From Luteimonas terricola (GTDB lineage Bacteria; Pseudomonadota; Gammaproteobacteria; Xanthomonadales; Xanthomonadaceae), in assembly GCF_004352845.1 (NCBI RefSeq), contig NZ_SJRX01000002.1, positions 1-64,000 on the forward strand: 64,000 bases of DNA, written 5' to 3'. Shown here in pieces: positions 6,602 through 24,506 of this stretch; position 1 is the first letter of the stretch, and every line of letters starts with the position of its first letter. Made by a program: the position numbers and the translations under genes. The notes beneath the pieces were generated by a model. It saw nothing but the letters and a program-made list of their open reading frames with translations, made no database searches and had not been told where the DNA came from.

Positions 6602-6676
6602 CGCTGCCGGCAACCGCCATCACCGCCGATACCGCATCATTGGTCCCGGCCCGCCATCCGCGTGTACCATGCCGCC

Positions 6677-8448: not shown

Positions 8449-8464
8449 TGGCACGGGTTCTGCA
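8449..8464 (+). promoter_or_regulatory. Sigma-54 promoter of pilA
   Basis: The sequence TGGCACGGGTTCTGCA fits the RpoN consensus TGGCACGNNNNTTGCW at all but one fixed position, with GG and GC at the correct spacing. It lies 107 bases before the pilA start, giving a leader of roughly 95 bases. PilR at 5136 is the expected activator. Confidence 0.85.
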
Positions 8465-8570: not shown

Positions 8571-9011
8571 ATGAAGAAGAAGATGCAAGGTTTCACGCTC
8601 ATCGAGCTCATGATCGTTGTGGCGATCATCGCCATCCTGGCCGCCATCGCGCTGCCGGCTTACCAGGACTACGTGGCCCGGGCGCAGGTTTCCGAGGCCA
8701 TGAGTCTGTCGTCCGGCGCCCGCACGGCCGTTGCTGAGTACGCCGCCGACCGTGGCGCTTGGCCGACCACCAACGCCGAGGCTGGGCTGTCCCCTGAAGG
8801 CAGCATCACTGGCCGCTACGTACGTCAGGTAGCGGTCGGCGCCAACGGCGTGATCTCCGCAACCATGGCAGGCGCAGGTTCTGCCAGCAGCAAGATCGCC
8901 GGCGACGTGTTCTCCCTGACTCCCTCCGATGCAGGCGGCAGCATCCGCTGGGCCTGCAATACGGCCACCACCACCGTCGAAGACAAGTACCTGCCCAGCT
9001 CCTGCCGCTAA
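8571..9011 (+). CDS. pilA: Type IV major pilin PilA (copy 1)
   Basis: Prepilin of 146 residues. The leader MKKKMQG is followed by the PilD cleavage site and the N-methylated Phe, then [31 protein letters not shown], split here by description: Glu5 of the mature pilin is present, and the hydrophobic helix runs to about residue 32. Two C-terminal cysteines (WACN and SSCR) would form the D-loop disulfide. GGGGAG precedes the ATG by a suitable distance. It has its own sigma-54 promoter and a strong terminator, so it can be expressed as a single-gene transcript at high level. The second pilin at 11037 is related but clearly distinct. Confidence 0.95.
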
Positions 9012-9036
9012 GCACCGTCAGCACGCCAGCACACTG

Positions 9037-9066
9037 AAAGGGCCGCATATCGCGGCCCTTTCTTTT
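9037..9066 (+). terminator. Rho-independent terminator after pilA
   Basis: AAAGGGCCGC, a four-base loop and GCGGCCCTTT are followed by a T-rich tail (CTTTT). It sits 26 bases past the pilA stop and before the membrane protein gene, probably separating high pilin expression from downstream genes. Confidence 0.85.
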
Positions 9067-9081
9067 CAAAAGTCCGCACCA

Positions 9082-10977
9082 ATGCGCCGATTGAGTCTCC
9101 TCGCCCCCGCTCTGATATGCCTCGTTGGCGCCTTGGTCTATTGGCAGGGACTGCGAGGCGGTTTCATATTCGACGACTTCGCCAACTTGGTTGACGACCC
9201 CGACTGGAAAGCGACTTCACTCGCGCCTGCCGAACTCTATCGCGCGATGGCATTAGGCATTGCAAGCGACACGGGACGCCCTCTGGCCTTGCTCAGCTTT
9301 GCACTGAACCATGTATTCACCGGCTTAGCCCCATTCCCCCTCAAACTCACCGGCCTGGTCTTCCATTTAACGAACGGCGTCCTAGTGTGGCTGCTATGTC
9401 TGCGCCTATTTACCTTGGCCCCAGGACGTCTCACAGCCGAACGCATGGGCTGCTACGCGGCGATGCTGGTTGCCTTGGCATGGGTCGTGCACCCCCTGCA
9501 AGTATCATCGGTTCTGTACGTCGTGCAGCGGATGGAAGTTGCCGCCCATACGGGCGTGCTCCTGGCGCTACTGGCATACCTCAGTGGCCGGACCGCACAG
9601 ACGACTGCGGGGGCAATAGCCTGGCCGTGGTTCGTCCTATCCGCCTTGGCGGTCGCGCTAGGCTTGGGGTTCAAAGAATCGGCTCTGCTAGTGCCGCTTT
9701 ACACGTTTGCGCTCGAAGTCTTCATCCTGCGATTCAAAACCGCAGACAACAGACCTTCCCGCCTACTTGTTGCGATCTACACCGCCGGTATCGCCTTCGG
9801 ACTCACACTGTTCGTCTTCCTCATCCTGCCCAAGTACTCCCCTGAGTCGATCTATGCAGCAAGACATTTTTCCCTGCACGAGCGCCTCCTCACGCAACCC
9901 CACGTATTGGCCTCATACCTCGGCCAAATACTGTACCCAAGGCTGGACAGCCTTGTCTTCTATTACGACAGCTTTCCTGTCTCTCGTGGGTGGCTGAATC
10001 CTCCCGCCACCCTGATCAGCACGATCGCTCTCGCCCTGCTCGCAGCTTTGGCCTGGCTTGCCAAAGACCGTTGGCCACTTGTTCCACTCGGAGTCGCTTG
10101 GTTCTTCGGGGCGCACGCTCTCACCAGCAATGTCGTGCCCCTTGAACTCGCATTCGAACATAGAAACTACTTTGCATTGCTCGGGATACTAATAGCAGCA
10201 GGACAAGTACTCGCCGCCGTGGGCGCGCGCTTGAACATGGATTCCCGACGAACGCTGGCTGCGACGCCAGTTGCACTCCTTGCATGTCTTTGCGCAATCC
10301 AGGCACACGTTTGGGGCGACCCATTGCGCTTGGCTATCGCGCTTGCGTCCCGGAACCAGGAGTCGCCTCGCGCAAGCTATGCCCTTGGAAAGCAGATGAC
10401 TATTCAGGCTGGCGAGAATCACTCGTCGCCGCTGTTGTCGCTGGCCGCCAAAGAGTTCGAGCATTCGGCGCAGTTGCCTCATTCATCCGCACTCGCGGAC
10501 CAGGCGCTCATCATTCTGCACGCAAGGACTGGTCAGACAGCGAAGCCAGAAATGTGGCAGCAACTGCGAGAGAAGATCACTCGAAGGAGTCTTGGCGTGC
10601 AGGACATCAGCGCACTTCATGGCCTCTTGGATTGCCGCATCCAGCACCGATGTGACATTGACGACCAAGAGCTTTTGGATACTTTTTTGACGGCGCTTGA
10701 CAAGAACCCAAGATCCGCGGTGCTCAACTCACTCTATTCTAACTTCGCTTATTTCGTGCTTAGGGATGCTGAACTTGCCCTAGTTGCGACACGAAGGTCA
10801 ATTGACCTCGACCCAAACACCCTACAATACAAAGTCAATCTGGCGAAAATTCTAGCAATGACCTCGCCAGAGGCCCCAGAACTAATCGAACTGTTAACCG
10901 CTATCAAGCACGCCGACAAGCATGGGATCTATTGCCAAGAAACTTCGGCTCCGGCTTGTCCACTTTTCTGGGACTGA
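9082..10977 (+). CDS. Polytopic GT-C-like membrane protein, candidate pilin glycosyltransferase
   Basis: A 631-residue inner-membrane protein with about ten hydrophobic segments in the first 420 residues and a soluble helical, TPR-like C-terminal part. After the first membrane segment comes [15 protein letters not shown], with an Asp-Asp pair at residues 31-32. This matches the first-loop acidic motif of GT-C enzymes, especially TMTC/PMT-like proteins that carry TPR tails. Other family-like signs are [15 protein letters not shown] and a conserved [12 protein letters not shown] stretch. It starts 16 bases after the pilA terminator and precedes the second pilin. I infer transfer of a lipid-linked sugar to pilin; acceptor and donor are unproven. 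Codon use is less GC-rich than in the housekeeping genes. Confidence 0.7.
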
Positions 10978-11036
10978 AAGATAGGCATGAAAATTGCATG
11001 GAGATTGGTCAACAGTATCTTCTGCGGGGGCTGGTT

Positions 11037-11465
11037 ATGAGAACATCGACTGAACGTGGATTCACCCTCATTGAGCTGATGATCACAGTCGCGATCATCG
11101 CCATCCTTGCAGCGTTCGCGCTACCAGCGTACCAAGATTACGTTGCCCGAAGTCACGTCACGGAAGCGATCAGCCTCGCAACTGGTGCCAAAAGCGCCAT
11201 AACCACGCACTACGGCGAACATGGGGAGTATCCCGCTAATAATCACAATGCGGGCATGGCATCGCCCTTATCCATTAATGGTAAATATGTGGCATCCGTT
11301 ACCATTGGCGGCGGCGATGGAATCATCTCCGTAGCATTCTCTTCTACCGCCAGCGCAAAACTCAGCGGACAAACGCTGTCGCTTCAGGTTTACGACCATT
11401 CGGGCAGCCTCCGCTGGGACTGTGGAGGCGTCGATGCCCGTTACCTGCCGTCCACTTGCCGCTGA
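11037..11465 (+). CDS. pilA2: Type IV major-type pilin (copy 2)
   Basis: Prepilin of 142 residues with leader MRTSTERG, cleavage before Phe, Glu5 retained ([10 protein letters not shown]) and the same [12 protein letters not shown] helix as copy 1. It keeps the two C-terminal cysteines (RWDCGG and PSTCR). The variable middle region differs strongly from copy 1 and is richer in His, Asn and Ser. The ATG at 11037 follows a GGGGG ribosome site. No clear sigma-54 site is seen just upstream, so it may be read with the preceding membrane gene. It could be an alternative or minor pilin, or a structural variant modified by the adjacent glycan genes. Confidence 0.92.
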
Positions 11466-11515
11466 CTACAGACCCGTCGCATGTTACCTACCCTGATCTA
11501 TCGCTTGCGCAACGT

Positions 11516-12553
11516 ATGAAAGAAACATTGGAACGCGAGCGTCCCGGGGTCTGGTTTCCTGCGATCAGAGCGGGAACCGGCACCGACGTGTTCACCGAAC
11601 GTCTGGTGGACGGTTTGAGACAGTGTGGTTTGCGGGCAGACATCACTTGGCTTCCGTTGCGTGCGGAGTACGCACCATGGACAGTTTCTGTACCCGAGCC
11701 GCCCGCCTGGGCGAACTTGGTACACGTCAACACCTGGCTGCATCCGCGCTTCATCCCATCGAATCTTCCGGTTGTGGCCACGCTGCATCACGCCGTGCAT
11801 CACCCAGATGCACACGCTTACAAGGGTGTACTGCGCGCCGCTTACCACTGCTGGTGGTTTGCACCCATCGAACGTCGCGTAATCTGCCGGGCCGACAAGG
11901 TGACCGCCGTCAGTCAGTTCGTTTCCGACAGCGCCCAGAAATCTCTTGTCGATGTGTTCATGCGGGTGATCCATAACGGCGTGGATACCAAAACCTTCAG
12001 ACCTGGCGCACGACAGAACCAACCCGGTGAACCCTTCAAATTGCTGTTTGTCGGCAGCTGGAGGGCACTCAAAGGTGTGGACCTGCTCGCTCCTATTCTG
12101 CGCGAATTAGGCGAGAACTTTGTACTTCGTTACACAGGAGGCTCGCCGGCGGAAACGGACAAAACGAACATGCCAGCCAACATGATCGACATCGGTCGTT
12201 TGCAAGGCGACGCCGCCGTGGTCTCGGCCATGCAGAATGCGGATGCGCTGCTTTTTCCTTCTCGCAACGAAGGCTTTGGGTTGGTTGTTGTTGAAGCCAT
12301 GGCTTGTGGGCTGCCGGTGATCGCAACGCGCGGCTCGTCCTTGCTCGATCTGGTGGAAGACGGAAAAACAGGGTTGCTGTGCGCACAAGACGATCTGCGC
12401 GCCTTTGTTGGCTCCATTCGGAGCTTGGCCGCGGACAGCGCCCGTTACGCCAGCTTTGCCCAAGCAGCACGGGAGCGAGCTTTGAATCTATTTACCAAAG
12501 AAGCAATGACCCAATCGTACGTAGACCTTTATCGCGCCCTCTTCACGCGTTAA
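11516..12553 (+). CDS. Glycosyltransferase family 4 (GT-B fold)
   Basis: 345-residue cytoplasmic glycosyltransferase. The C-terminal Glycos_transf_1 domain is clear: LLFVGSWRALKGVDLL, then NADALLFPSRNEGFGLVVVEAMACGLPVIA, which holds the EX7E-type motif of retaining GT4 enzymes. The start is set at the ATG 51 bases after the pilin stop; an in-frame TTG inside the pilin end is less likely. Its stop overlaps the stop of the opposing glycosyltransferase gene by 11 bases. It is probably co-transcribed with pilA2 and adds a sugar to the glycan made by the adjoining island. Donor and acceptor cannot be read from sequence. Confidence 0.88.
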   Translation: MKETLERERPGVWFPAIRAGTGTDVFTERLVDGLRQCGLRADITWLPLRAEYAPWTVSVPEPPAWANLVHVNTWLHPRFIPSNLPVVATLHHAVHHPDAHAYKGVLRAAYHCWWFAPIERRVICRADKVTAVSQFVSDSAQKSLVDVFMRVIHNGVDTKTFRPGARQNQPGEPFKLLFVGSWRALKGVDLLAPILRELGENFVLRYTGGSPAETDKTNMPANMIDIGRLQGDAAVVSAMQNADALLFPSRNEGFGLVVVEAMACGLPVIATRGSSLLDLVEDGKTGLLCAQDDLRAFVGSIRSLAADSARYASFAQAARERALNLFTKEAMTQSYVDLYRALFTR

Positions 12554-13754
12554 TACGAGCCCGCCATGCACCGCGCAATTCATTCCCTAAGAACCGCAAG
12601 CTATCCATGCGTCCCGGTGCAGCTCTGAGCGCCCCGGCTGCGATGCTGGCCTCATACACGTTCTGTAGCGCAAGTCTGTCGGTGACGACCGAGCGCAGTA
12701 CTCGCACCAATTTTTGCCCCAGCCAGCGTGATTCCAGCTTTCGGCGCAGATGTACCGCCGAACGATTCGCGCGGGAATAGTCTAATCCGTGCAAATGCGA
12801 AAAGTCCTGGCCCCAAGCATCAATCGCAGTGCGGTGCTTCCCGGAAGTCGCCAGCACCACAGCCAATTGTCGAGCGTGATTCATCGAGTCCACGCTGCCG
12901 CCCAAACGAGCAGATTGCAGATAGGCCTCGTAAACGCACGCTTGCAATGACGTTGGCATGTTGCCTTCCTTGGAGGTTGGCATATCCGCATGGGAGGGTA
13001 TATTGCCCTCGCTTAAGAACTGCCTGTAAGCCTGCGGGTTGCGGGAAGCACGGGCCGAAAACGCCGAATGCCCGTTGCTGTACTTGGACGTTCCGCTGAT
13101 CGCCAGCGGCTCGCGGACGAAAAGAAAATCGTCGGTCAGGCGGGCAATCGCCACGGCCGTGTATACGTCTGGATTGACCGAGGAGAAGAACACACCCATC
13201 ACGTCCCTGATGTGTTGCAACACCGAGAAATGGATAAATCCGCCGTTGTAGATCATCGGCAACTGACTGTATCGGACGTGCCCCTCCAAGGCCTTCTTGA
13301 GCCATTTTCGGCTGTTTCGACTTTCCATCCCGGATGTCAGCGGCACGATGAGCTGGCCGTACGGGCGCCCAAGCATTCCCGGCCAGTCGTAGGTACAGTA
13401 TTCGGTGCGAATCACCTGCGCCTTCGTCTCAACGATGATCTCGGCCATCCGGTGTATTGCGCCAGGGAGGAGGCCATCGTCATCGCCCATGAAGGTGACC
13501 CAGCCCTCCCGCACATGGGTTAGTGCGAACTCCCAGTTGTGCGACATGCTCAAGCGCTTGCCAGTGTTTAGGTAGCGAATACGACTGTCATTAGCGTGCT
13601 GCACTACTGCATCAGTGCCATCACCGCTATTGTTGTCGCTGACGATGATTTCTAGGTTTTCGTAGGTTTGAGCCGTAACGGTTCGCAGCGCGGCGCCTAG
13701 CACGCTGGCGCGCTCACGTGTAGGGATGATGACGGTAATCTTGGGTGAAGTCAT
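12543..13754 (-). CDS. Glycosyltransferase family 2 (GT-A fold)
   Basis: 403-residue inverting-type glycosyltransferase. The N-terminal nucleotide-sugar domain opens with ITVIIPTRERASVLGAALRTV, followed by SDNNSGDGT and an acidic FMGDDDG motif that serves as the DXD metal site. The C-terminal 150 residues are helical and not assigned. It is the last gene of the minus-strand sugar operon; its ATG overlaps the flippase stop. The 3' end overlaps the opposing GT4 gene. It likely adds one residue to the lipid-linked oligosaccharide. Confidence 0.88.
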   Translation of the reverse strand: MTSPKITVIIPTRERASVLGAALRTVTAQTYENLEIIVSDNNSGDGTDAVVQHANDSRIRYLNTGKRLSMSHNWEFALTHVREGWVTFMGDDDGLLPGAIHRMAEIIVETKAQVIRTEYCTYDWPGMLGRPYGQLIVPLTSGMESRNSRKWLKKALEGHVRYSQLPMIYNGGFIHFSVLQHIRDVMGVFFSSVNPDVYTAVAIARLTDDFLFVREPLAISGTSKYSNGHSAFSARASRNPQAYRQFLSEGNIPSHADMPTSKEGNMPTSLQACVYEAYLQSARLGGSVDSMNHARQLAVVLATSGKHRTAIDAWGQDFSHLHGLDYSRANRSAVHLRRKLESRWLGQKLVRVLRSVVTDRLALQNVYEASIAAGALRAAPGRMDSLRFLGNELRGAWRARINA

Positions 13755-15265
13755 TGGAACAGTTCGTCAAAGTATGAGGACATCCGCCGCCACATCGCAG
13801 CGCGTACCGCAGGTGCGGTCAGGGCACAACCCAACAAAGTTAAGCCACTCGCCAGTGCGAGCACAGCAAGCCCCGACAGGCTGCGAGGCAGGACTGGAAA
13901 TAGCGCCCTCAGCGCGAGTGCTACACCCAAGCCTGCCAGCAACGGGGGCAGATTGTCGCGCAGAAGCCATGGCACGGCTTGGCCTCGCAGCAGGCGACGA
14001 TGCATCAGCGGAACACCCATGGCAACCGAGATCAGGTTAGGCACCAGCCAAAGCACCGACGCGCCGACCATGCCGTGGCGCGGCACGGCCCAAAAGCAAA
14101 GGGGAATGATCAGCACCAGTGACACAGCGTTCAGACCCAACGCCAAGCGCGTCCAGCCATTAGCTAGCTGAAGCGCGTATGGAATGTTCATCAGCCCGTT
14201 CAGTGCTGTCCCCGTGACCAGAATCGCCATGGGCAGCGCCACCCTATCGGCCACCATGGCGTCACCCGTCCAAAGCACTAGAATATCCCAAGAAAATATG
14301 ATCAATATAGACGTCATTGAAGCAATGACTACGGCAAGATACTGGCTGCTGAGGTGATATAGCTCACGCAGAGTCTTTTCGTCATGGCGTGATACCAGCC
14401 GGCTGAAACGGGGATAGAGTGCGTTGAACATAGGTTGCACCATGCGCCCAAGGCCAGCGGCAACGCTCAATGCCAGCGTGTAATAACCCACTTCCTCCAG
14501 CGGACGAAGACTGGCTAGCGCCAAGCGGTCAATCTGGGTTATCACCACCGACAATACGCCAATGGCGAACAGTCCGCCGGCAAAGCTCCGGTTGCGCAAG
14601 AGTTCCAGCGCTGACCAGCGCGCGTTGCGCTTGCCAGAAGGCAAAGCACGCCATACGGCTACGGCCATGACCAATGACTGCACAAGGCCCACGATGGCGT
14701 GCCACCATAGGAACGCCTCGATTGTTGATGCAGCCCATATCAGCACAGGCACCACGCCAGCGTATCGAAGCGTGGCGAATGCCGCATTTATCAAATTGAG
14801 CGCAGGTTGCCGCTCCAGCCCCGACAAGCAATTGGCGTAGAACGTGCTCGGCCAAAGCAACGCAATGGCCACTCCCATTATCGCGATGGCCGTGCCGGCT
14901 TGGTCCCGGCCAAGGGTTTGCAAGTGGAGCCAATGTTCGGCCATCGGCCCGCTGCCAATCCATACTAACAGCGCTGCCAGAGCCGCCAGCAGCCAAATGG
15001 TGGTTTCCGCCGTGCGCAACAAGTCGCGCGAGTTGTCTGCCTGTGCTGCGTCATACACGCGACGCGACAACTCGCGGTTCACAGTGCCACCAATACCGAA
15101 GTCGAAGAGTTGCATGACCGCTTGCAGGCTGAGCATCAGGCCGACCAGACCAAAGGCTTCCATGCCCAAGATGCGTGTGTACAGCGGCAGGAACACCAGT
15201 CCAATTGCCGCGATCCACATGTGGCCGGCGTAATTAGCCAGAATGTTGATGCGCAGTGCAGCCAT
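13751..15265 (-). CDS. Wzx-like polysaccharide flippase
   Basis: 504-residue integral membrane protein with about 12 to 14 hydrophobic helices spread over its whole length, beginning MAALRINILANYAGHMWIAAIG. The pattern matches MATE/MVF-superfamily O-antigen and teichoic acid exporters that move undecaprenyl-linked glycans across the inner membrane. It overlaps the downstream glycosyltransferase (ATGA) and starts 8 bases from the upstream stop, so it is part of the sugar operon. The presence of its own flippase argues that the island builds a complete lipid-linked unit. No polymerase (Wzy) or chain-length regulator is recognised, which suits transfer of a single repeat. Confidence 0.88.
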   Translation of the reverse strand: MAALRINILANYAGHMWIAAIGLVFLPLYTRILGMEAFGLVGLMLSLQAVMQLFDFGIGGTVNRELSRRVYDAAQADNSRDLLRTAETTIWLLAALAALLVWIGSGPMAEHWLHLQTLGRDQAGTAIAIMGVAIALLWPSTFYANCLSGLERQPALNLINAAFATLRYAGVVPVLIWAASTIEAFLWWHAIVGLVQSLVMAVAVWRALPSGKRNARWSALELLRNRSFAGGLFAIGVLSVVITQIDRLALASLRPLEEVGYYTLALSVAAGLGRMVQPMFNALYPRFSRLVSRHDEKTLRELYHLSSQYLAVVIASMTSILIIFSWDILVLWTGDAMVADRVALPMAILVTGTALNGLMNIPYALQLANGWTRLALGLNAVSLVLIIPLCFWAVPRHGMVGASVLWLVPNLISVAMGVPLMHRRLLRGQAVPWLLRDNLPPLLAGLGVALALRALFPVLPRSLSGLAVLALASGLTLLGCALTAPAVRAAMWRRMSSYFDELFQ

Positions 15266-15273
15266 GAGACGAA

Positions 15274-16050
15274 TCAGCGCCTGCGCAAATAGCCGCCGGG
15301 AGCTACCGTGATCAATAGCTTTGCCTCGATGTCCTCATCCACCTTGAAATCATCGCGGCCGGAAAGGAATTCACGAACGGCAGTCTTGGGGTTGTTGCCC
15401 ACGTCCCAAGGACGCTCGGGATAAATACCGGCGGGCAAATCCTCGATCACCGTGTCGAAAACCACGCAGTAGCTGCCGTGACTAACCAGCGGTGCATAGG
15501 CACGAAGCTCCGCCAGCACATGATCATGCGTGTGGTTGGAGTCCAGGATTACCATGATGCGCTCGAAACCTGCGGCGCGCTTGCGCACTTCGGCCACGAT
15601 CTCGGGCGCAATCGACGAGCCCTGAATCATATCGATAAGGTGCGCCATGGGGTGTGCGTCAATGGCGGCACGGTTATGGGCGCGGATGTCGATGTCGATG
15701 CCCAGCACACGTCGGCGCGACTCTTTGGGGTCCAGCATCCTGCCGTCATCGACGGCGTCGCGGTAGTCCAGTAGCGCCAAGATTGAGGCGCTTAGGATCA
15801 ATGAACCACCATGGGCGATACCCGTCTCTATCACAAGATCTGGCTTAATCTGCCAGATCAACTCCTGGATGGCGATCATGTCTTGTGGATACTGGATGAT
15901 CGGACGGTCCATCCACGAGTGGTTGTAAGAGTATTGGTGGAAGAGCGTCCTGCGCAGCCAATCGATGGAATCCTTTCGGAGGCTAGTGTCAGCTCTAAGT
16001 CCATCGATATTTGCTTTAACGAAGCACTTGAATTCGGCTTTTGGATCCAT
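15274..16050 (-). CDS. CmcI-like cephalosporin hydroxylase family protein (probable O-methyltransferase)
   Basis: 258-residue protein with the CmcI/rhamnosyl O-methyltransferase signature: KPDLVIETGIAHGGSLI as SAM-binding motif, followed by VLGIDIDIRAHNR and the acidic metal-binding motif VILDSNHTHDHV. Despite the family name, members are SAM-dependent O-methyltransferases acting on sugars and other small molecules. Position in the sugar operon suggests methylation of a hydroxyl on the unusual sugar or the finished glycan. 18 bases separate it from the acetyltransferase gene upstream. Confidence 0.85.
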   Translation of the reverse strand: MDPKAEFKCFVKANIDGLRADTSLRKDSIDWLRRTLFHQYSYNHSWMDRPIIQYPQDMIAIQELIWQIKPDLVIETGIAHGGSLILSASILALLDYRDAVDDGRMLDPKESRRRVLGIDIDIRAHNRAAIDAHPMAHLIDMIQGSSIAPEIVAEVRKRAAGFERIMVILDSNHTHDHVLAELRAYAPLVSHGSYCVVFDTVIEDLPAGIYPERPWDVGNNPKTAVREFLSGRDDFKVDEDIEAKLLITVAPGGYLRRR

Positions 16051-16068
16051 GGGCTGCTTCTGTTGGAA

Positions 16069-16716
16069 CTACTTTCTGATGGGGGGATGTGCGGGATTAC
16101 CAATGACAGTTGTACATGCGGGCACATCCCTAGTGACAATGGCCCCGGCGCCAATGATCGCACCAGACCCGATTCGAACACGGGGGAGCACCACGGCTCC
16201 AATACCTATGAACGCATTTTCCTCGACCAAGACTTCACCTCCGAGCCGCGCACCGGGCCCAATGTGAACCCCGTCGCCAATCACGCAATCATGGTCGACG
16301 GATGCCGCAGTATTGACGATGACCGAGCGACCCAGTCGCGCGTTCGCGCAGACCGCTGCCTGTGCCAGCACGTGACAGCCGTCGCCGATGGTCGCTGTTG
16401 TCGCAACGAAGCCGGTTCTATGGATGACGGTCGGCAGGTTCAATCCATGTGACAAGAGGAAATCTGCGGTATCCAGCCGGCTCTTGCCGTCGTTGCCTCC
16501 AATCGCGACGCACGCTGCCACTACCTCGACAGACTGCGAATGCATCCAGCTGGAAAAGGTGTCAGTTCCTACGAAAAGCGGCACGTCCTCAAAAGGGGAA
16601 ACGATCTCGCGCTGGTCAAAAACTGCGACAACATGCCAGCTTTCTCTGCGCAAGGCCTCGCGGATCACCCTTGCGTGCCCCGTGCCTCCCCATATGACCA
16701 AGGGTTGCGCAGTCAT
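16069..16716 (-). CDS. PglD/NeuD-like sugar N- or O-acyltransferase
   Basis: 215-residue protein. The N-terminus is a Rossmann-like domain (VIWGGTGHARVIREAL) typical of PglD/NeuD-type enzymes. The C-terminal half is a left-handed beta helix built from hexapeptide repeats (IGDGCHV, VIGDGVHIGPGARL, AFIGIGAVVLPRVRIG). Such enzymes acetylate the amino group of UDP- or CDP-4-amino-sugars with acetyl-CoA. It overlaps the aminotransferase gene by four bases (ATGA), which supports sequential action: amine installed, then acylated. Confidence 0.9.
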   Translation of the reverse strand: MTAQPLVIWGGTGHARVIREALRRESWHVVAVFDQREIVSPFEDVPLFVGTDTFSSWMHSQSVEVVAACVAIGGNDGKSRLDTADFLLSHGLNLPTVIHRTGFVATTATIGDGCHVLAQAAVCANARLGRSVIVNTAASVDHDCVIGDGVHIGPGARLGGEVLVEENAFIGIGAVVLPRVRIGSGAIIGAGAIVTRDVPACTTVIGNPAHPPIRK

Positions 16717-17840
16717 GGAATGTCTCCAAGCACGGAGTGGACACAGATTGAAACCCTCTCCATGTCGGCATTATCAAGATCTTGATAGCTGGGCAAGTTG
16801 ATGGCGCGTGACGACAGCGAATAGCTAATTGAATTCTGGGGTTCTGATCTGAACATTTCGAGGGAGGACAGCGGCCAAAAAAACACCCGCCCATCAATGT
16901 TGCATGCGCTAAATGCTGCTAGCAGCGTCTCGCGGTCGAAAGGAACAGCTTCGTCAACGACAATTGTCGGCATCCAATAGCCGTTTACTGTATTTGGTGG
17001 CTCTGGATTCATCGACACCGGCAACCCGGCGAGTGCCCCACGATAGGCCTCGAACACACGGCGCTTGCCGGCTACAAGTTCATCGACCCGCTCCAACTGT
17101 GCGCAGCCGATGGCAGCTTGGACATTGGACATTTTGTATTTAAAGCCGATACTTTCGGGCCAGAACTGACGTGCCTCATCGCGGGCGCGACCGTGGTTAG
17201 AGAGGGTCAGAGCGCGCTCGTAAAGGGCATCGTCATTAGTGATAAAGATGCCGCCTTCACCGGTGGTGAGTGTCTTGGTGCCGTGAAAGGAAAAGGCTCC
17301 AAAGATTCCCATGGATCCAGCACGTTTTCCGTGCCAAGCTGAGCCAATCGCTTCGGCAGCATCTTCGATCAAGTAGATGCCGTGCTTTTGTGTGATGACT
17401 GAAAGCGCATCCATGTCGCACAAATTGCCATACAGATGCACAGCAAGAACGGCCTTGGTACGTGGCGTGATAGCCGCTTCCACTGCAGCCGGGTCAAGAC
17501 ACCAAGTGTCCGCCAAAATGTCCACTAGAACAGGCGTTGCGCCGACGTAGATAATGGGCGCTGCGGAAGCAATCCAGTTGATGTCGGCAAGGATGACTTC
17601 ATCCCCTGGGCCGATACCCAATCCAGCCAAACCCATGTGCAACGCACCTGTGGCGCTGGATGTGGCAATTGCGTGGCGCACGCCGAGGTACTGGGCGAAT
17701 TGTCGTTCAAAGCGGTAAATGTAGTCGTAGCATTGCTCCCCCCAGCCGTTCGTCACGGCATCGTTGGCATACCGGATCTCCAGCTCCGTGATGGACGGCT
17801 TGGTGTAGTAGATACGGGACGAGTTGCTTTCAATAGTCAT
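16713..17840 (-). CDS. DegT/DnrJ/EryC1-family PLP sugar aminotransferase
   Basis: 375-residue PLP enzyme. FSFHGTKTLTTGEGG carries the Schiff-base lysine (Lys189), so this is a true aminotransferase and not an RfbH-type 3-dehydrase, where histidine replaces it. Asp160 in LIEDAAEA is the PLP nitrogen contact. The ATG at 17840 (MTIESNSS) overlaps the stop of the methyltransferase gene by four bases; an upstream in-frame start lies inside that gene. Amination at C4 of the keto sugar made by RfbG is the simplest reading, because the next gene product is PglD-like. Confidence 0.9.
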   Translation of the reverse strand: MTIESNSSRIYYTKPSITELEIRYANDAVTNGWGEQCYDYIYRFERQFAQYLGVRHAIATSSATGALHMGLAGLGIGPGDEVILADINWIASAAPIIYVGATPVLVDILADTWCLDPAAVEAAITPRTKAVLAVHLYGNLCDMDALSVITQKHGIYLIEDAAEAIGSAWHGKRAGSMGIFGAFSFHGTKTLTTGEGGIFITNDDALYERALTLSNHGRARDEARQFWPESIGFKYKMSNVQAAIGCAQLERVDELVAGKRRVFEAYRGALAGLPVSMNPEPPNTVNGYWMPTIVVDEAVPFDRETLLAAFSACNIDGRVFFWPLSSLEMFRSEPQNSISYSLSSRAINLPSYQDLDNADMERVSICVHSVLGDIP

Positions 17841-19060
17841 GACATTTGCAACTTTGGAATCACAGTAAGAAACTTGCCATTCCATTCCCGGATATAGGCT
17901 AGCTGTGCGGTAATTTCATCACGGAGGTTCCAGGGGAGGATCACCACGTAGTCTGGCTGGGTTTCGCGGATGCGGGCTTCAGACACCACAGGAATACGTG
18001 AGCCTGGCAGGAAGCGCCCCTGCTTGTGCGGCGACGCATCCACGACATAGGGGAGCAGGTCGGGGCGTACACCAGCATAATTGAGCAATGTGTTGCCTTT
18101 CGCCGCAGCGCCATACCCGGCGACTTTGCGGCCCAAGCGCCGTTTTTCAAGCAGGAACGCAAGCAGGTCGTTCTTGACCTCGTCCGCCTGGGCCTGGAAG
18201 CCACGGTAGTAGTCCATGGCGAGCATGCCGGCTGCACGTTCAACGTTGAGAATGGCCTCGACCGACGGCTGCTGTTCGAAGGCGCTGCTGTCGTGGGCAG
18301 CCCAGACACGCAGCGACCCGCCATGCGTGGTCAGGCGCTCTACATCCCAGATACGCAGGCCATGCTGGACAAGCGCGTTGAGTACCGTGTGCAGGGAGAA
18401 ATAGGAAAAGTGTTCGTGGTAGACGGTATCGAACTGGCGCTCCTCGATCAGGCGCTGCAGGTGAGGAAACTCGATCGACAGCGAGCCCTGCTGCGCCAGC
18501 ATGATCGCCAGTCCGGCGATAAAGTCATTGAGGTCAGGCACATGCGCAAGCACGTTATTGGCGACGATCAGCTCGGCGCCACCGCGTTCGCCAGCAAGCT
18601 CCCTGGCCAGCGCTTGGCCGAAAAATGCCTCAATGGTCTCGATACCGCGTCCACGTGAGACGGCAGCAGTCCCGGAGGTCGGCTCGATTCCGACGCAGGG
18701 AATGCCCTTGTCTGCCACGTACTGCAAGAGGTAGCCATCGTTTGAGGCAACTTCCAGTACCAGGCTTTCGTGTCCGAGACCGAGTCTGTTGGTGGCGGCA
18801 TCGACAAAGCCCCGCGCGTGTTCGAGCCACGAACTTGAGTATGAGGAAAAATAGGCGTAATCCGCCGGGAACAGGGCCTCGTGCGACTGCACCTCGTCGA
18901 CCTGCACCAAGAAGCATGCTCTGCAGGTGAACAGCTTCAGTGGGAACCAGGTCTCCGGTGCAGTGAGTGTCTCGGCCGTCAGGTAGGCGTTGGAAGGCGG
19001 TGCGCTTCCTAGATCAAGGAAAACATCGCGTAGCGGCGCGGAACACAGACGGCATCTCAC
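17837..19060 (-). CDS. SAM-dependent sugar C-methyltransferase (TylC3/NovU type)
   Basis: 407-residue enzyme with the three-part layout of sugar C-methyltransferases. An N-terminal zinc site is formed by C3/C6 and C46/C49 (MRCRLC and FTCRAC). A central SAM domain shows VLEVASNDGYLLQ. The C-terminal domain contains a second Rossmann-like motif (KVAGYGAAAKGNTLLN). The YHEHFSYFS motif holds the base pair of His and Glu typical of the family. Homologues place a methyl on C3 or C5 of nucleotide-linked 4-keto-6-deoxy sugars. Overlaps of four bases with both neighbours make it a core member of this pathway. Which carbon is methylated cannot be told. Confidence 0.92.
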   Translation of the reverse strand: MRCRLCSAPLRDVFLDLGSAPPSNAYLTAETLTAPETWFPLKLFTCRACFLVQVDEVQSHEALFPADYAYFSSYSSSWLEHARGFVDAATNRLGLGHESLVLEVASNDGYLLQYVADKGIPCVGIEPTSGTAAVSRGRGIETIEAFFGQALARELAGERGGAELIVANNVLAHVPDLNDFIAGLAIMLAQQGSLSIEFPHLQRLIEERQFDTVYHEHFSYFSLHTVLNALVQHGLRIWDVERLTTHGGSLRVWAAHDSSAFEQQPSVEAILNVERAAGMLAMDYYRGFQAQADEVKNDLLAFLLEKRRLGRKVAGYGAAAKGNTLLNYAGVRPDLLPYVVDASPHKQGRFLPGSRIPVVSEARIRETQPDYVVILPWNLRDEITAQLAYIREWNGKFLTVIPKLQMS

Positions 19061-19617
19061 GGCTGCAATCCCGCGAATTCATGGTCGATCAACGGGGCTG
19101 TGCGGTCCTTGTCCGAGATCAGGCTGATCGCCAACCGCCACTCGATTGCGAGTGCGGGGTCATCAGGGCGCAGACCACCTTCGTGTTCGCGCCTCCAGGG
19201 CGCGGTGTGCAGGTACAGAAGCTGCACGTTGTCGGTCAACGCCTGGAAGCCGTGCGCGAAGCCTTCCGGGATGAACACCTGCAAGGGCTTGTCAGCGTCG
19301 AGTTCAACGGCGTGCCAATGCAGGAAGGTCTTGGAGCCGGCGCGCAGATCGACCGCCACGTCGAACACGCGTCCGCGCAGGCAGCGGATCAACTTGGCTT
19401 CCGCGGCCGGTGGGCGTTGGTAGTGCATGCCGCGTACGGTGCCGCGCTGGTACGTCACGGATAGATTCACCTGCGGGATATCCTTGGATGGGTGCAGTTC
19501 ACGGAGCGAAGCTTCACAGAATACGCGCGTGAAGCTGCCCCGGTCGTCGTTGACCGATTTTGTTTCGACCACAACAAGTCCCGAAAGTGGCGTGGCGTGC
19601 AGCTTCATGCCGCCCAT
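19057..19617 (-). CDS. RmlC-like sugar 3,5-epimerase (CDP-keto-sugar epimerase)
   Basis: 186-residue cupin of the dTDP-4-dehydrorhamnose 3,5-epimerase family. The conserved RGMHYQ segment (His base), FDVAVDLR and FIPEGFAHGF are present. Because the operon makes CDP-sugars with RfbF and RfbG, the substrate is probably CDP-4-keto-6-deoxyglucose and not the dTDP form. Some relatives epimerise only C3 or C5, as in novobiocin-type sugar pathways. The ATG at 19617 overlaps the rfbG end by 13 bases; a second ATG nine bases later is possible. Confidence 0.88.
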   Translation of the reverse strand: MGGMKLHATPLSGLVVVETKSVNDDRGSFTRVFCEASLRELHPSKDIPQVNLSVTYQRGTVRGMHYQRPPAAEAKLIRCLRGRVFDVAVDLRAGSKTFLHWHAVELDADKPLQVFIPEGFAHGFQALTDNVQLLYLHTAPWRREHEGGLRPDDPALAIEWRLAISLISDKDRTAPLIDHEFAGLQP

Positions 19618-20705
19618 TCCAGTCCCGAGGAACGGGCATGCCGGATATAGTCGACGAGGTTGTCGCGGCTGTCGACGAAGCCATGCACATGGAAGTTTCG
19701 GTACCAGCCCATCGTGCGGGTGATGGTCATGTCTGCATCCCAGACCGGCCGCCAGCCGAGTCCGAGCGCGGCCTTGCCGCTGTCCAGTTGCAGTACGGCT
19801 GCCTCATGGAGGTGCTCCACTCCCGGGACCTGCACCGACACTCCGGGCCAGTGTTCCCGCAAGCGCTCGACCAGGGCAAGGACCGGGAGCGTTGCGCCGG
19901 GCGCGGGGCCGAAGTTCCAAGGGCCCTCCGCCGGCTCGCCGGCCAACAACGCCTGGCCAAGGCGCAGGTAGCCCGAGAGGGGCTCAAGCACGTGCTGCCA
20001 GGGGCGGATCGCATCCGGGTTCCGCACCTGCAAGGGTGTGCCGCGCGATGCGGCGCGGACAAGGTCGGGGACCAGTCGGTCCGCTGCCCAGTCACCGCCG
20101 CCGATCACGTTGCCTGCCCGCGCGGTGGCCAGGCGTGGCACCACCTTGCCCGTGCCGGTGAAAAAGCTGCGGCGATAGCTTTCGCTGACCAGCTCAGCGC
20201 AGGCCTTGGACGTGCTGTAGGGATCATGCCCGCCGAGCGCGTGTTCTTCCGAGTAGCCGCCAGTTGTCGCCTGCTCGAGATACACCTTGTCCGTGGTGGC
20301 GTTGACGACAGCCAGAACGCCGCTGATCTTGCGGATAGCCTCATACAGGCTCACCAAGCCGATGACATTGGTGGAGAAGGTGCCGACCGGATCAACGTAG
20401 CTGTGTCGCACCAGCGGTTGTGCTGCCAGATGGAAAACGACTTGCGGGCGGTGGTGCTGCACCGCTTCGTAGAGCTTCTCGGCGTGACGCAGATCGATGC
20501 GCTCGTCCGCAATCCCTTTCAGTGCAAGCAGATTCCAGTGCGACGGTTCGGTGTCAGGCGACAGCGCAATGCCCGCCACTTTGGCACCCATGGCCTGAAG
20601 CCAAAGGCACAACCATGAGCCCTTGAAACCGGTGTGCCCGGTGACCAGCACACGCATGCCCGCGTAGGCGCCGCCGAACAGGTGCTTCAATTCCAGGTCT
20701 TCCAA
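19605..20705 (-). CDS. rfbG: CDP-glucose 4,6-dehydratase
   Basis: 366-residue short-chain dehydrogenase. NAD-binding motif VLVTGHTGFKGSWLC, active site TTDKVY and the YSTSK Tyr-Lys pair are all seen; the FKGSW variant and overall length are typical of RfbG and separate it from dTDP- and GDP-sugar dehydratases. It converts CDP-glucose to CDP-4-keto-6-deoxyglucose, the branch point for the downstream enzymes. It overlaps the preceding rfbF by 19 bases and the epimerase by 13. Confidence 0.95.
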   Translation of the reverse strand: MEDLELKHLFGGAYAGMRVLVTGHTGFKGSWLCLWLQAMGAKVAGIALSPDTEPSHWNLLALKGIADERIDLRHAEKLYEAVQHHRPQVVFHLAAQPLVRHSYVDPVGTFSTNVIGLVSLYEAIRKISGVLAVVNATTDKVYLEQATTGGYSEEHALGGHDPYSTSKACAELVSESYRRSFFTGTGKVVPRLATARAGNVIGGGDWAADRLVPDLVRAASRGTPLQVRNPDAIRPWQHVLEPLSGYLRLGQALLAGEPAEGPWNFGPAPGATLPVLALVERLREHWPGVSVQVPGVEHLHEAAVLQLDSGKAALGLGWRPVWDADMTITRTMGWYRNFHVHGFVDSRDNLVDYIRHARSSGLEWAA

Positions 20706-21457
20706 GGTGCTGCACCGGTCTGCCAGAGCTCTTCAAGACGGGTGCGATCGCGCAGCGTATCCATGGGTTGCCAGAAGCCTCGGTGCAGGTAGGCGGACAG
20801 TTGCCCGTCTCGCGCAAGGTTTTCCAGCGGTTCGCGTTCCCAGACGGTGCCTTCACCGGCGATGTACTCGAACACGCCTGGCTCCAGGACGAAGAAACCA
20901 CCATTGATCCAAGTGCCATCCCCCTGAGGCTTCTCGGTGAACTGTGTGATGCGGCTGTCGTGGATGTCCAACGCACCGAAGCGGCCGGGTGGCTGCACGG
21001 CACCCACCGTCGCCAGCGTGCCACGTGAGCGGTGGAAGCCGAGTTCGGCAGTGATGTCGATATCCGACAGGCCATCCCCATAGGTGAAACAGAAAGTGTC
21101 ATCGTCCAGGTACTCCGCGACACGCAACAGGCGGCCTCCGGTCTGGGTGTCGTCGCCCGTATCGACCAGCGTGATCCGCCAGGGCTCAGCGTGCTTGTGG
21201 TGCACTGCCATGGTGTTGTCGCGCATATCCAGGGTGACGTCTGATGTGTGCAGGAAGTAGTTGGCGAAGTACTCCTTGACCAGATAGCCCTTGTAGCCCA
21301 AGCAGATCACGAATTCGTCGATCCCGTGGCGGGAATAGTGCTTGAGGATGTGCCAGAGAATCGGCTTTCCGCCGATCTCGACCATCGGCTTTGGGCGCAC
21401 AACGGTTTCCTCGCTCAGGCGAGTACCGAGACCACCGGCGAGGATGACTGCTTTCAT
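20687..21457 (-). CDS. rfbF: Glucose-1-phosphate cytidylyltransferase
   Basis: 256-residue nucleotidyltransferase that makes CDP-glucose from CTP and glucose-1-phosphate. The signature MKAVILAGGLGTRLSEET and RPKPMVEIGGKPILWHI are classic for RfbF; GDGLSDID holds the metal-binding aspartate. It is the first gene of the nine-gene minus-strand sugar operon (21457 to 12543), so the promoter should lie in the 150-base gap 21458-21607. I could not identify a convincing promoter there. Confidence 0.96.
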   Translation of the reverse strand: MKAVILAGGLGTRLSEETVVRPKPMVEIGGKPILWHILKHYSRHGIDEFVICLGYKGYLVKEYFANYFLHTSDVTLDMRDNTMAVHHKHAEPWRITLVDTGDDTQTGGRLLRVAEYLDDDTFCFTYGDGLSDIDITAELGFHRSRGTLATVGAVQPPGRFGALDIHDSRITQFTEKPQGDGTWINGGFFVLEPGVFEYIAGEGTVWEREPLENLARDGQLSAYLHRGFWQPMDTLRDRTRLEELWQTGAAPWKTWN

Positions 21458-21607
21458 GGGCGCAAGGTATCAGGTGGGAAGATGGTGCGGCAGGGAAGGA
21501 TGGTTTGGCAGTGGTGCCAGCAGCTTGGATATCCGGCCTCTCAAATGGCGTCTGTGCCAAAGCTCGGCTACTTGCCGCGCCCATGCGCTGGTGGTAATCA
21601 TCGTTGC

Positions 21608-23533
21608 CTACGCGGCGGACACGTCGCGCGCGTCGGGGTCCTTGAGGCGCAGTACATAGATCAGCGTTGGGAACACTCGCCGCAGCAAACCGAAAGCCCA
21701 ATCTGGAACATGCCGGAGGAAAGCGCGGTAAGCAAGCGCCCGTGGACGTTCCAACTCGTAAGTCAGGCGCAGCGCTCCGCCGTGCAACTGTGCGTGCTCA
21801 AAACCAACGGTATCGAGCAGAGCCTCCAGCTCCGGCACGGTCAGCGGCCGACAATCATATTCGGTACCTCGCCTACGCCAACGCAGGTACGGCGTCCGCC
21901 AGTGTGGTGGCAGCCAGCTTAGGAATGCCAGCCCATAGTGTGGCTCGACCAACATCCAACGGTTAGGCACCGCCAGGTAGATGCGCCCCGAAGGCGCGAG
22001 AACGCGCCGCAATTCCTCGAGGTGGCTCTTCTGGGCACCCATGTCACCCACGTGCTCGATAACGTGATTGCTGATGACAGCATCGAATGCAGCATCTGCG
22101 AAGGGCAGTCCGGTATCTTCGACGCGCGTGAACTGGTAACCGCCGTGGACCTGGCGTGCATCCTCGACATCCACTGCTTCGACGTCGAACGCGATTGTCG
22201 GATGAGTGCCGAAGTAGTGCGCGATCCCACCCGAGCCGCAACCGACCTCCAGCAGCCGGAGCGGTCGCTCGCGCGCACCCAGTTCCAGCAACGCTTCGAT
22301 CTTTCGTGCCTTGGCGTTGCGGCTCTGCAAGTCTAGTACTGCGTGGCCGCGGTGGCCATCTTCCGTAAGCCGATCGCCGCGCAAGATTGCATCCACATGA
22401 TCGTGCAACCGCGTTTCGAACTGTTCCCAAGCGAACCCTCGCGCAAAAACGCGTGCTGACGCGCGCAGAGGCGCGTCGGGGCCGTCGTGGAGGATGTCGC
22501 ACACCCGCCGCGCAAACCCTGCGTAATCGTTCGGTGCCAGCAGGTTGCCGCTGACACCATCCCTGACCGCATCCGGTACGCCGCCGACCGCGAACGCGAC
22601 GGTGGGGACGCCATGCGCCGCCGCCTCGATCGCGACCATTCCGAACCCCTCGACATCCCCGGGCACCTGTCGCACAGGAAAAACATGCACGTCGGCCGCC
22701 GCATAGGCCTCTGCCAGGGTTGCTTCGCCGCACGGCCCCAAGCGTGTGACGTGGTGGGACAGCCCCTGCCCGGCTGCCGCACGCGCCAATGCGTCCACGG
22801 GATCCTCGCTACTTCGTCGGAGGGCGTCCGGCGCATCATCGCCGACGAGCACCAGGCGCGCTCCGGGATATCGCGCCACGATCGCGGGAAGCGCCTGCTC
22901 GACCAAGGCGGCCAAGCCCTTCCGCTCCGTCAGACGGCCAACGCTGAGCAAAAGAGGGCCATCACCCAAGCCAAAGCGCGTACGAAAGCCCTTGGAGTCG
23001 ATGGCGACGCCTTGCGGCAAGGATGTCCCGGGATGCACGACCGCCACGTTGCCTCCTGCCACACCTGCCCGCGCGGCGAGATCGGCGGTATTGGCGCTGT
23101 TTGCCAGTGCGCCGTCGAGTCGTCGCAACATCGGCAGCCACATCATGCGGTAGACCAGGTGCGTCGCCACGATATCGAGGCCATGGATGTAGGCGGCAGA
23201 CTTGGCCCGTGCCCGCCACGCCGCATACACTGCCGCCGGCGCCATCAGTCCGCTGCCGGCCACCACCAGGTCGAAAGGGTTTGCCGTGAGCCGATGTGCA
23301 AGCAGCATCGAGCGGACCAGGAACCGCCACAGTGGCGCGACCGGGATTTCATGCACTTGGACGCCTGTCGGCAAGCTGTCCCCACATCCCATTGGACCCA
23401 CGACTAGCAACTCCGCGCGCTTGGCAAGCGCCGTCGCTACGCGCTGGTTTAGTCGTTCCATCCCGCCTCGCAGCGGCGGCAAATTGCGCGTAAGAAGAAG
23501 AATGCGCGGGCGGGACTCGCCAGGTTCAGGCAT
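21608..23533 (-). CDS. Fusion of GT4 glycosyltransferase and SAM methyltransferase
   Basis: 641-residue two-domain protein. Residues about 1-385 form a GT-B glycosyltransferase: N-terminal ILLLTRNLPPLRGGMERLN and C-terminal LLSVGRLTERKGLAALVEQ with an EGFGMVAIEAAAHGVPTVA motif. Residues about 410-641 form a class I methyltransferase: LRLLEVGCGSGGIAHYFG and VISNHVIEHVGDM. The two domains read through in one frame with a short linker and no internal start with a ribosome site. The likely role is sugar transfer followed by methylation, perhaps a chain-capping reaction. A 150-base gap separates it from the rfbF operon; the GT2 gene upstream overlaps it by eight bases. Confidence 0.9.
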   Translation of the reverse strand: MPEPGESRPRILLLTRNLPPLRGGMERLNQRVATALAKRAELLVVGPMGCGDSLPTGVQVHEIPVAPLWRFLVRSMLLAHRLTANPFDLVVAGSGLMAPAAVYAAWRARAKSAAYIHGLDIVATHLVYRMMWLPMLRRLDGALANSANTADLAARAGVAGGNVAVVHPGTSLPQGVAIDSKGFRTRFGLGDGPLLLSVGRLTERKGLAALVEQALPAIVARYPGARLVLVGDDAPDALRRSSEDPVDALARAAAGQGLSHHVTRLGPCGEATLAEAYAAADVHVFPVRQVPGDVEGFGMVAIEAAAHGVPTVAFAVGGVPDAVRDGVSGNLLAPNDYAGFARRVCDILHDGPDAPLRASARVFARGFAWEQFETRLHDHVDAILRGDRLTEDGHRGHAVLDLQSRNAKARKIEALLELGARERPLRLLEVGCGSGGIAHYFGTHPTIAFDVEAVDVEDARQVHGGYQFTRVEDTGLPFADAAFDAVISNHVIEHVGDMGAQKSHLEELRRVLAPSGRIYLAVPNRWMLVEPHYGLAFLSWLPPHWRTPYLRWRRRGTEYDCRPLTVPELEALLDTVGFEHAQLHGGALRLTYELERPRALAYRAFLRHVPDWAFGLLRRVFPTLIYVLRLKDPDARDVSAA

Positions 23534-24377
23534 CGCGCCGGTACGTCAGACTTGTGATCTGCTCAGAGACCAACCCAATGAGGAAAATAATCACCGATGC
23601 GCTGAACATAAGCATGCTCATGTTCGTGAAGCGACCTTGGGTAATGTACGTGTATACGTAGTAGCCCAGCCCCACCAGGAAGAACGCCCCGGCGCTTGGT
23701 GCGAACAACTTGAGTGGCGAGTAGAGCGTAGCGATCTTGAAGATGATCAGCAAAAAGCGGATCCCATCCCGGATTGGTCTGATGTGGCTGATGCCAATGC
23801 GCTTGGCCACCGGAATCGGCACATACGCCACCGGGTACGCGCTTCGAAAGAAGGCCATTGTGCTGGTTGTGGGGTAGCTGAAGCCGTTTGGCAACAGGTG
23901 AATGAATTCTTTGAACTTGTCTGACCTGGCTACGCGAAAGCCGGACGTCAGGTCCTTCACATCGAACCCGGTCATACGGCTGGCCAACCAGTTGTAGAAG
24001 GCGTTTGCCGCACCTCGACTCACGCCGGCTTGCCCGGACCAATCCCGTGCGCCCACCACCATGTCGAAGCCCTGCTCAAGCCGGGCCAGCAGGGTCGGGA
24101 TATGGGCTGGATCATGCTGGCCATCGGCATCCATGAACACCAGTACCTCACCAAAGGCCGCGCGCGCGCCGCGCTTGATCGCCGCGCCATTGCCCATCGA
24201 ATACGGCAATGACAGCACCCGCGCGCCATGCGCGGCAGCGACCGTAGCGGTATCGTCGCCTGAGCCATCATCCACTACGATCACTTCGGCATCGGGCAGC
24301 AGTGCCCTTAACGTAGGCAGGGTGCGCCGAAGGCCGTCGGCCTCGTTCTTGGCGGGCAGGATGACTGAAATTCGCAT
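23526..24377 (-). CDS. Membrane-anchored GT2 glycosyltransferase (DPM1/GtrB type)
   Basis: 283-residue protein. The N-terminal GT-A domain opens RISVILPAKNEADGLRRTL and has VIVVDDGSGDDT and VFMDADGQHDP motifs. The last 70 residues hold two hydrophobic membrane helices (LFAPSAGAFFLVGLGYYVY and the SASVIIFLIGLV segment). This is the layout of polyprenyl-phosphate sugar synthases such as GtrB and DPM1, which make undecaprenyl-phosphate-linked donors for GT-C enzymes. The ATG at 24377 has a GGGGA site four bases before it and is preferred over one 18 bases upstream. If it feeds the GT-C-like protein at 9082, both halves of a flip-and-transfer pathway are present. Confidence 0.88.
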   Translation of the reverse strand: MRISVILPAKNEADGLRRTLPTLRALLPDAEVIVVDDGSGDDTATVAAAHGARVLSLPYSMGNGAAIKRGARAAFGEVLVFMDADGQHDPAHIPTLLARLEQGFDMVVGARDWSGQAGVSRGAANAFYNWLASRMTGFDVKDLTSGFRVARSDKFKEFIHLLPNGFSYPTTSTMAFFRSAYPVAYVPIPVAKRIGISHIRPIRDGIRFLLIIFKIATLYSPLKLFAPSAGAFFLVGLGYYVYTYITQGRFTNMSMLMFSASVIIFLIGLVSEQITSLTYRRDA

Positions 24378-24457
24378 GAGATCCCCTTTGCCCAAGGGTA
24401 GCCGGAAATCTCCGGCGGCGGCAGCCGCCCGTCCATAGCGTGACCCATGTCCGCCTA

Positions 24458-24473
24458 TGGCACACAGGATGCT
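24458..24473 (+). promoter_or_regulatory. Putative sigma-54 promoter of pilB
   Basis: TGGCACACAGGATGCT has TGGCAC and TGCT elements at the RpoN spacing, with two mismatches to the full consensus. The predicted start of transcription is about 20 bases before the pilB ATG, whose ribosome site GGAGG falls inside the short leader. The fit of promoter, leader and ribosome site is good. Confidence 0.65.
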
Positions 24474-24506
24474 TGCGGTAAAGTCTGCCCATCGTGGAGG
24501 AACCCA

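Follow-up and report, generated by a model that had tools for sequence, protein, structure and literature searches.

The type IV pilus locus of Luteimonas terricola raises the question of why genes for making and transferring sugars should fill the space between a pilin gene and pilB. To our knowledge, only a few bacteria, namely Pseudomonas aeruginosa, Neisseria and Acinetobacter, have had their pilin glycosylation worked out in detail. A sequence-only reading of the window (the whole stretch of DNA analysed, 64,000 nucleotides) had proposed that these genes make a sugar and attach it to pilin. This is still the best reading of the sequences, because position and covariation link a GT-C glycosyltransferase to pilin, and this enzyme is in turn linked to a lipid-phosphate sugar synthase. 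We regard it as probable that the interval is a pilin-specific O-glycosylation island with constant ends and an exchangeable middle. The GT-C enzyme, which has a TPR tail, belongs to a family without a name in Pfam or NCBIfam that is present in half of the sampled Xanthomonadaceae genomes and is often tied to pilins and variable sugar genes. The system as we read it is a variant of pilin glycosylation, and its chemistry is not of a new kind.

Gene content and predicted sugar

The open reading frames and domain profile matches place 14 genes between pilA1 (8571-9011) and pilB (24447-26231), all present and in order. Three of them are read in the direction of the pilus genes (GT-C, 9082-10977; pilA2, 11037-11465; GT4, 11456-12553). 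The other 11 (12543-24395) run opposite to the pilus genes and are packed tightly, mostly overlapping. Upstream of the island an NtrC-type regulator occupies the pilR position, and a PilC-type protein and a prepilin peptidase are encoded downstream. The GC content is 59.6% from the GT-C gene to gtrB, against 68.0% upstream. The features are as follows.

8449..8464 (+): sigma-54-like promoter site, about 107 bp 5' of pilA1, 1 mismatch to the consensus
8571..9011 (+): pilA1, type IVa pilin (PF00114, 2.3e-28)
9036..9062 (+): intrinsic-terminator-like hairpin in the pilA1/GT-C gap, 11-bp stem then TTTTC
9082..10977 (+): GT-C glycosyltransferase with C-terminal TPR domain, candidate pilin glycosyltransferase (model, structural matches, invariant residues)
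11037..11465 (+): pilA2, second type IVa pilin (PF00114, 1.3e-22)
11456..12553 (+): GT4 glycosyltransferase (PF00534, 1.9e-27)
12543..13754 (-): GT2 glycosyltransferase (PF00535, 2.6e-20)
13751..15265 (-): Wzx-type flippase (PF01943, 1.1e-20)
15274..16050 (-): CmcI/rhamnosyl O-methyltransferase-type sugar methyltransferase (PF04989, 3.2e-94)
16069..16716 (-): NeuD/PglD-type sugar acetyltransferase (TIGR03570, 194.8 bits, cut-off 160.8)
16713..17885 (-): DegT sugar aminotransferase (domain match; closest solved relative perosamine synthetase, C4 amination)
17837..19060 (-): sugar 3-C-methyltransferase (PF08484, 2.2e-63; closest solved relative D-mycarose 3-C-methyltransferase 4rv9, 6.2e-72)
19057..19617 (-): RmlC-type 3,5-epimerase (PF00908, 1e-59; TIGR01221, 155.2 bits, just below the cut-off of 155.75)
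19605..20705 (-): RfbG, CDP-glucose 4,6-dehydratase (TIGR02622, 428 bits, cut-off 278.45; 1rkx, 1.2e-106)
20687..21457 (-): RfbF, glucose-1-phosphate cytidylyltransferase (TIGR02623, 461.5 bits, cut-off 300.25)
21608..23533 (-): GT4 fused to SAM methyltransferase (PF13692, 5e-30; PF13489, 9.4e-15)
23526..24395 (-): GtrB/DPM1-like polyprenyl-phosphate sugar synthase (PF00535, 3.2e-30)
24447..26231 (+): pilB, assembly ATPase, boundary gene (TIGR02538, 848 bits, cut-off 675.65)

Pfam matches bear out the GT2 enzyme, GT4 enzymes, flippase and DPM1/GtrB-type enzyme named in the sequence-only reading (PF00535, PF00534/PF13692, PF01943 and PF00535, respectively), and its choice of ATG 9082 as the GT-C start was confirmed. 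The gtrB gene begins at ATG 24377 or TTG 24395 on the minus strand. Solved relatives of its product include ArnC-type transferases, dolichol monophosphate mannose synthase and sll0501, and the CmcI-type methyltransferase (15274..16050) had no solved relative at 0.001. The sigma-54 motif was found 25 times in the window against a mean of 35 expected (two mismatches or fewer), and the motif alone is thus not above chance; the placement of the site 5' of pilA is the feature that fits. The pilA1/GT-C gap (9012-9081) folds at -24.0 kcal/mol, and its hairpin is absent from the list of a separate terminator scan. A nucleotidyltransferase/HepT-like pair at 6662-7473 (+), between the pilR-type gene and pilA1, is probably an MntA-HepT toxin-antitoxin module.

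RfbF and RfbG would produce CDP-4-keto-6-deoxyglucose. In an order that we infer, the 3-C-methyltransferase, the RmlC-type epimerase, DegT and the NeuD-type acetyltransferase would convert it to a branched, probably N-acetylated 4-amino-4,6-dideoxy-3-C-methylhexose. The solved relatives of the C-methyltransferase and DegT, together with the NeuD-type acetyltransferase, thus lead to the prediction of a CDP-linked 4-acetamido-4,6-dideoxy-3-C-methylhexose. O-methylation of this sugar by the CmcI-type enzyme is predicted, and the GT4 fusion may perhaps methylate it too. We surveyed 149 genomes of the bacterial family, including that of L. terricola, and found an RfbG-type CDP-glucose dehydratase above the cut-off in nine; in eight it lies 4.6-15.2 kb from pilB, and in G105 the distance is 2.2 Mb. 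Genome G024 has a truncated RfbG-type dehydratase at one end of the contig that carries pilB. RfbF is present in eight islands, all eight of which also hold RfbG, RmlC, the C-methyltransferase and CmcI, and five of which hold DegT.

The remark in the earlier reading that no polymerase could be recognised holds, as the Pfam matches of all 14 genes include no Wzy; nor do they include a phosphoglycosyltransferase or a GtrA domain. An O-antigen biosynthesis locus was rejected as the identity of the island, whose Pfam matches include no initiating phosphoglycosyltransferase and no Wzy polymerase or Wzm/Wzt. Elsewhere in the genome, the sole PF02397 phosphoglycosyltransferase is on another contig (C10:99184), about 14 kb from a Wzy_C protein. 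A second Wzy_C protein outside the window adjoins a Kdo-transferase (WaaL-like), and Wzt_C was not found in the genome.

The GT-C/TPR enzyme and its linkage to pilins

The protein between the two pilins had been called GT-C-like. It matches no Pfam family at 0.001, and the assignment is supported by a confident model, by structural matches and by invariant residues. The AF2 model has a pLDDT of 93.7 for the whole protein and 94.8 for the GT-C part. With VIA-align, GT-C enzymes were structural matches to this predicted model, which appears to have the multi-helix membrane GT-C fold. STT3-type enzymes were among the closest folds, and TPR proteins matched residues of about 499-617. The fold assignment rests on VIA-align because Foldseek and sequence searches gave weak or TPR-dominated matches. 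In Foldseek, the GT-C part on its own drew ArnT and OST chains first, with weak E-values (0.011-0.07; ArnT 0.011), and then largely transporters; most of the best 50 matches listed for the whole model were to proteins with TPRs or other repeats. The 27 matches listed when the GT-C profile was compared with solved structures by sequence were mostly TPR proteins and included no GT-C enzyme. Residues D31, D32, R66, H95, K198, E359, H360, R361 and N362 are invariant in 56 aligned sequences, and the acidic pair D31 D32 (first outer loop) sits just after the first helix of the predicted model. TPR models match some of these 56 relatives, with TPR_19 in 12.

The GT-C gene was detected in 75 of the 149 genomes and 34 of 54 genera (own genome included); within the genus itself it is present in three of six genomes and absent from the other three. 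Counting our own, 102 of 105 GT-C matches are found no more than 30 kb from pilB, where about two would be expected at random in a 3.5-Mb genome. The other three comprise one on another contig and two in genomes without a full PilB listed. A stretch adjoining pilB, mostly of 20 kb, was taken for 130 of the 148 other genomes, which gave 131 regions with our own, and 73 of these contain a GT-C gene (own included). Where GT-C is present, the first pilin lies a median of 11.4 kb from pilB (71 regions in which a pilin was detected); where it is absent, the median is 1.4 kb (53 regions). A same-strand pilin lies less than 300 bp from the start of 73 of the 102 GT-C ORFs; the remaining 29 are 26 second or third tandem copies (counted by hand), two at contig ends and one in the inverted island of G064. 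GtrB homologues were found inside the pilin-pilB interval in 68 of the 73 loci with GT-C, five lacking one there, but in only 3 of the 58 without GT-C. In 64 of the 68, GtrB is divergent from pilB and less than 400 bp away. The linked gtrB suggests that a lipid-linked sugar is the donor of the GT-C enzyme.

The sequence-only reading had called for a synteny search across the Xanthomonadaceae for this gene set. Pilin, GT-C and GtrB, often with GT4, do recur together, whereas the exact gene set is not conserved and the middle differs, with 144 singleton gene clusters in 73 islands. Approximate counts from the clusters for extra genes in these islands are 58 with GT4, 62 with any extra glycosyltransferase, 43 with a methyltransferase, 28 with a flippase-like gene and 23 with DegT. 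In 50 of 56 islands the interior is poorer in GC than the flank upstream. A terminator follows the pilin in 43 of the 73 GT-C loci and follows 52 of the 84 pilins of GT-C-less loci; being equally common in the latter, it was rejected as a mark of the GT-C cassette.

Divergence of the pilin and of the GT-C enzyme is correlated. Over 65 loci the pilin-GT-C distance correlation was 0.57 (partial correlation given GtrB 0.56, permutation p 0.001), and that of pilin and GtrB was 0.08. When pilR served as the control (48 loci), the correlation of pilin and GT-C was 0.59 (partial given pilR 0.57, p 0.001), and the control pairs gave 0.16 for pilin-pilR, 0.26 for GT-C-pilR and 0.54 for GtrB-pilR; pilC, available in too few loci, was set aside as a control. 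From these correlations, GtrB follows the neighbouring regulator gene, and the pilin varies in step with GT-C. Part of the pilin-GT-C covariation may come from co-transfer of neighbours. In 44 two-pilin loci GT-C covaries to much the same degree with either pilin (0.56, 0.59), the non-adjacent as well as the adjacent one. The Ser/Thr content does not separate pilins adjoining GT-C (0.180), other pilins of GT-C loci (0.177) and those of GT-C-less loci (0.171). A search for acceptor sites in 72 GT-C-adjoining pilins against 84 of GT-C-less loci gave one column with a Ser/Thr difference above 0.3 (0.46 vs 0.14).

The linkage of GT-C and pilB is strong within this bacterial family but looser outside it. 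Of 321 genomes sampled across the class, 113 have GT-C at E 0.001, and in 84 the matches are strong. A pilB was listed in 55 of these 84, on the same contig in 24 and on different contigs in 31; where both shared a contig, 20 of 24 were within 30 kb and four were far apart. Because of these four and of the 31 of 55 on different contigs, the GT-C-pilB link is not absolute. A scan of named genomes returned at least 592 GT-C relatives. Among the best 80 of these loci, a pilin lies less than 700 bp upstream in 38, elsewhere in the locus in 37 and nowhere in it in five; within limited flanks, the same 80 had a GtrB-like match in 18 and pilB in 12. In Pseudomonas toyotomiensis and P. chengduensis, pilin genes are followed by GT-C and directly then by GtrB, divergent from pilB-pilC, and these GtrB proteins are 65-66% identical to that of L. 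terricola.

Known systems and competing explanations

Papers are cited here from excerpts. TfpW of Pseudomonas paraeruginosa Pa5196, compared by description only, is likewise a GT-C enzyme encoded in a pilA cassette, with a polyprenyl-phosphate pentose donor and pilin as acceptor (PMC12369383, PMC11841053, PMC11127046). The island GT-C gene also lies directly after pilA. In the TfpW system, however, the D-Araf genes are in another region (RGP80) and the synthase that makes the donor is said not to resemble GtrB (PMC11127046, PMC12369383), whereas the island has a GtrB-type synthase and sugar genes inside the pilin-pilB interval and its GT-C enzyme has a TPR tail.

TMTC1-4, animal O-mannosyltransferases of the GT-C/PMT clan, share with the island enzyme a GT-C domain followed by TPRs; the TMTCs act on cadherins with Dol-P-Man. 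The 24 families matched by the 56 GT-C relatives do not include DUF1736 (PF08409), which we take to be the TMTC domain. The TMTC motifs (DD in the first outer loop, RP and KE) can be read by eye in the island enzyme from the motif names in an excerpt of PMC7801869, but its last motif is EHRNY, not ERxxY, and it is a bacterial protein adjoining pilins. Full-length TMTC homologues have been noted in uncharacterised prokaryotes (PMC7801869).

The O-oligosaccharyltransferases TfpO/PilO and PglL have a Wzy_C domain. They too glycosylate pilins, and TfpO is encoded in the pilA cassette (PMC12369383). A Wzy_C-type identity for the island enzyme was rejected, PF04932 being absent from the window protein and from all 56 relatives.

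Fragments of the island pattern are already in print for Xanthomonas. In X. vesicatoria BNM 214/216 an EamA transporter and two glycosyltransferases lie between pilB and pilC (PMC10333488), and in X. vasicola pilA alleles have been transferred horizontally (PMC4235730). The excerpts of these two papers neither propose pilin glycosylation nor describe a GT-C/GtrB pair, and within the excerpts available from the open-licence literature we found no description of a GT-C/GtrB pilin island.

Undecaprenyl-phosphate sugars are products of GtrB-type enzymes, and it is in the periplasm that GT-C enzymes draw on lipid-linked donors (PMC11127046). The pair could be part of a three-component system whose target is O-antigen or exopolysaccharide and which lies in the pilus locus merely by position: O-antigen side-chain glucosylation, as in Gtr serotype conversion, has GtrB together with a GT-C enzyme as its hallmark (PMC11127046), and the two Wzy_C proteins elsewhere in the genome, one of them WaaL-like, imply that such glycans are made. 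The Gtr acceptor is O-antigen, however, whereas the GT-C gene of the island adjoins or is near pilins in most loci examined, tracks pilin divergence and encodes a TPR tail, and no GtrA domain is found among the 14 genes. We consider this explanation quite improbable. It is somewhat easier, though still unlikely, to imagine that pilin is glycosylated with oligosaccharides on undecaprenyl pyrophosphate (Und-PP), started by a phosphoglycosyltransferase encoded elsewhere, with GT-C as the oligosaccharyltransferase and GtrB in a side branch. Wzx, the two GT4 domains and GT2 resemble such a pathway, one PF02397 enzyme is available in the genome, extra glycosyltransferases occur in 62 of 73 islands and STT3-type enzymes are among the closest folds; the island itself, however, is without a phosphoglycosyltransferase, and GtrB is a near-constant partner (68 of 73) that directly follows GT-C in Pseudomonas.

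The pilin-pilB gap might also be an insertion hotspot that gathers sugar genes with no function for the pilus. The lower interior GC, the many singleton clusters and the patchy presence even within the genus would agree with such hitchhiking. Against it, the ends recur in a fixed order, GtrB and GT-C occur together, GT-C covaries with pilin, and the same pairing appears on another layout in Pseudomonas; we find it very hard to credit.

Proposed route and variation among loci

In the pilin glycosylation that we favour, the constant ends would be the GT-C/TPR transferase on the pilin side and the GtrB/DPM1-like synthase on the pilB side. On the cytoplasmic side of the membrane, GtrB would start the glycan by joining a sugar to undecaprenyl phosphate (Und-P), and the exchangeable middle would provide and add further sugars. 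In L. terricola, the GT4 and GT2 enzymes would attach the CDP-derived sugar to the lipid-borne one, the methyltransferases would O-methylate, and Wzx would flip the lipid-borne glycan. Ahead of the assembly driven by PilB, GT-C would then move the glycan onto Ser/Thr of PilA1, PilA2 or both. We infer each of these chemical steps, together with Und-P rather than Und-PP as carrier, transfer en bloc and Ser/Thr as acceptor; the lack of a phosphoglycosyltransferase in the island agrees with an Und-P carrier.

Constant ends with a different middle across relatives suggest that their pili carry differing sugars. TfpO- and TfpW-type glycosylation guards Pseudomonas against pilus phages (PMC11841053, PMC12369383), and by analogy with P. 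aeruginosa the selective force is likely to be escape from pilus phages or from recognition. More tentatively, as a picture that we find plausible but short of probable, the widespread TMTC-like GT-C/TPR family and its DPM1-like partner would be a pilin glycosylation machine, and in this bacterial family the pilin-pilB gap would be a cassette-exchange locus for pilus glycotypes, like an O-antigen locus but for pili. The TPR tail would bind pilin, so that pilin and GT-C would form one specificity unit and the sugar cassette would be swapped independently. If true, this would show how many bacteria could diversify the pilus surface used by phages; glycoengineering would gain new transferases, and the TMTC/DPM1 pair would have a bacterial model.

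Several features vary among the loci. Tandem GT-C genes (two or three) occur in 27 of the 73 GT-C loci. The copies fall partly in separate clades, and they may therefore act in sequence or on different pilins; a division into two clean subfamilies holds only partly. In L076 (G064) and L128 (G095) either the island or pilB is reversed with respect to the other, an arrangement that suggests cassette inversion. Several other islands have, next to gtrB, a GT4 gene that adjoins an unfused methyltransferase gene; the two are fused in the window (21608-23533, -). Pilin-pilB intervals of about 12-13 kb without GT-C were seen in G022, G067 and G131, with four, three and two pilins, respectively. Eight long hydrophobic ORFs from GT-C-less loci with long intervals were scanned for domains: those of L071, L088 and L199 have a spermine-synthase domain and lie between pilin and pilB, and five more (L096, L121, L132 and two in L162) have no Pfam match. 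These long hydrophobic proteins possibly represent other pilin-modifying cassettes.
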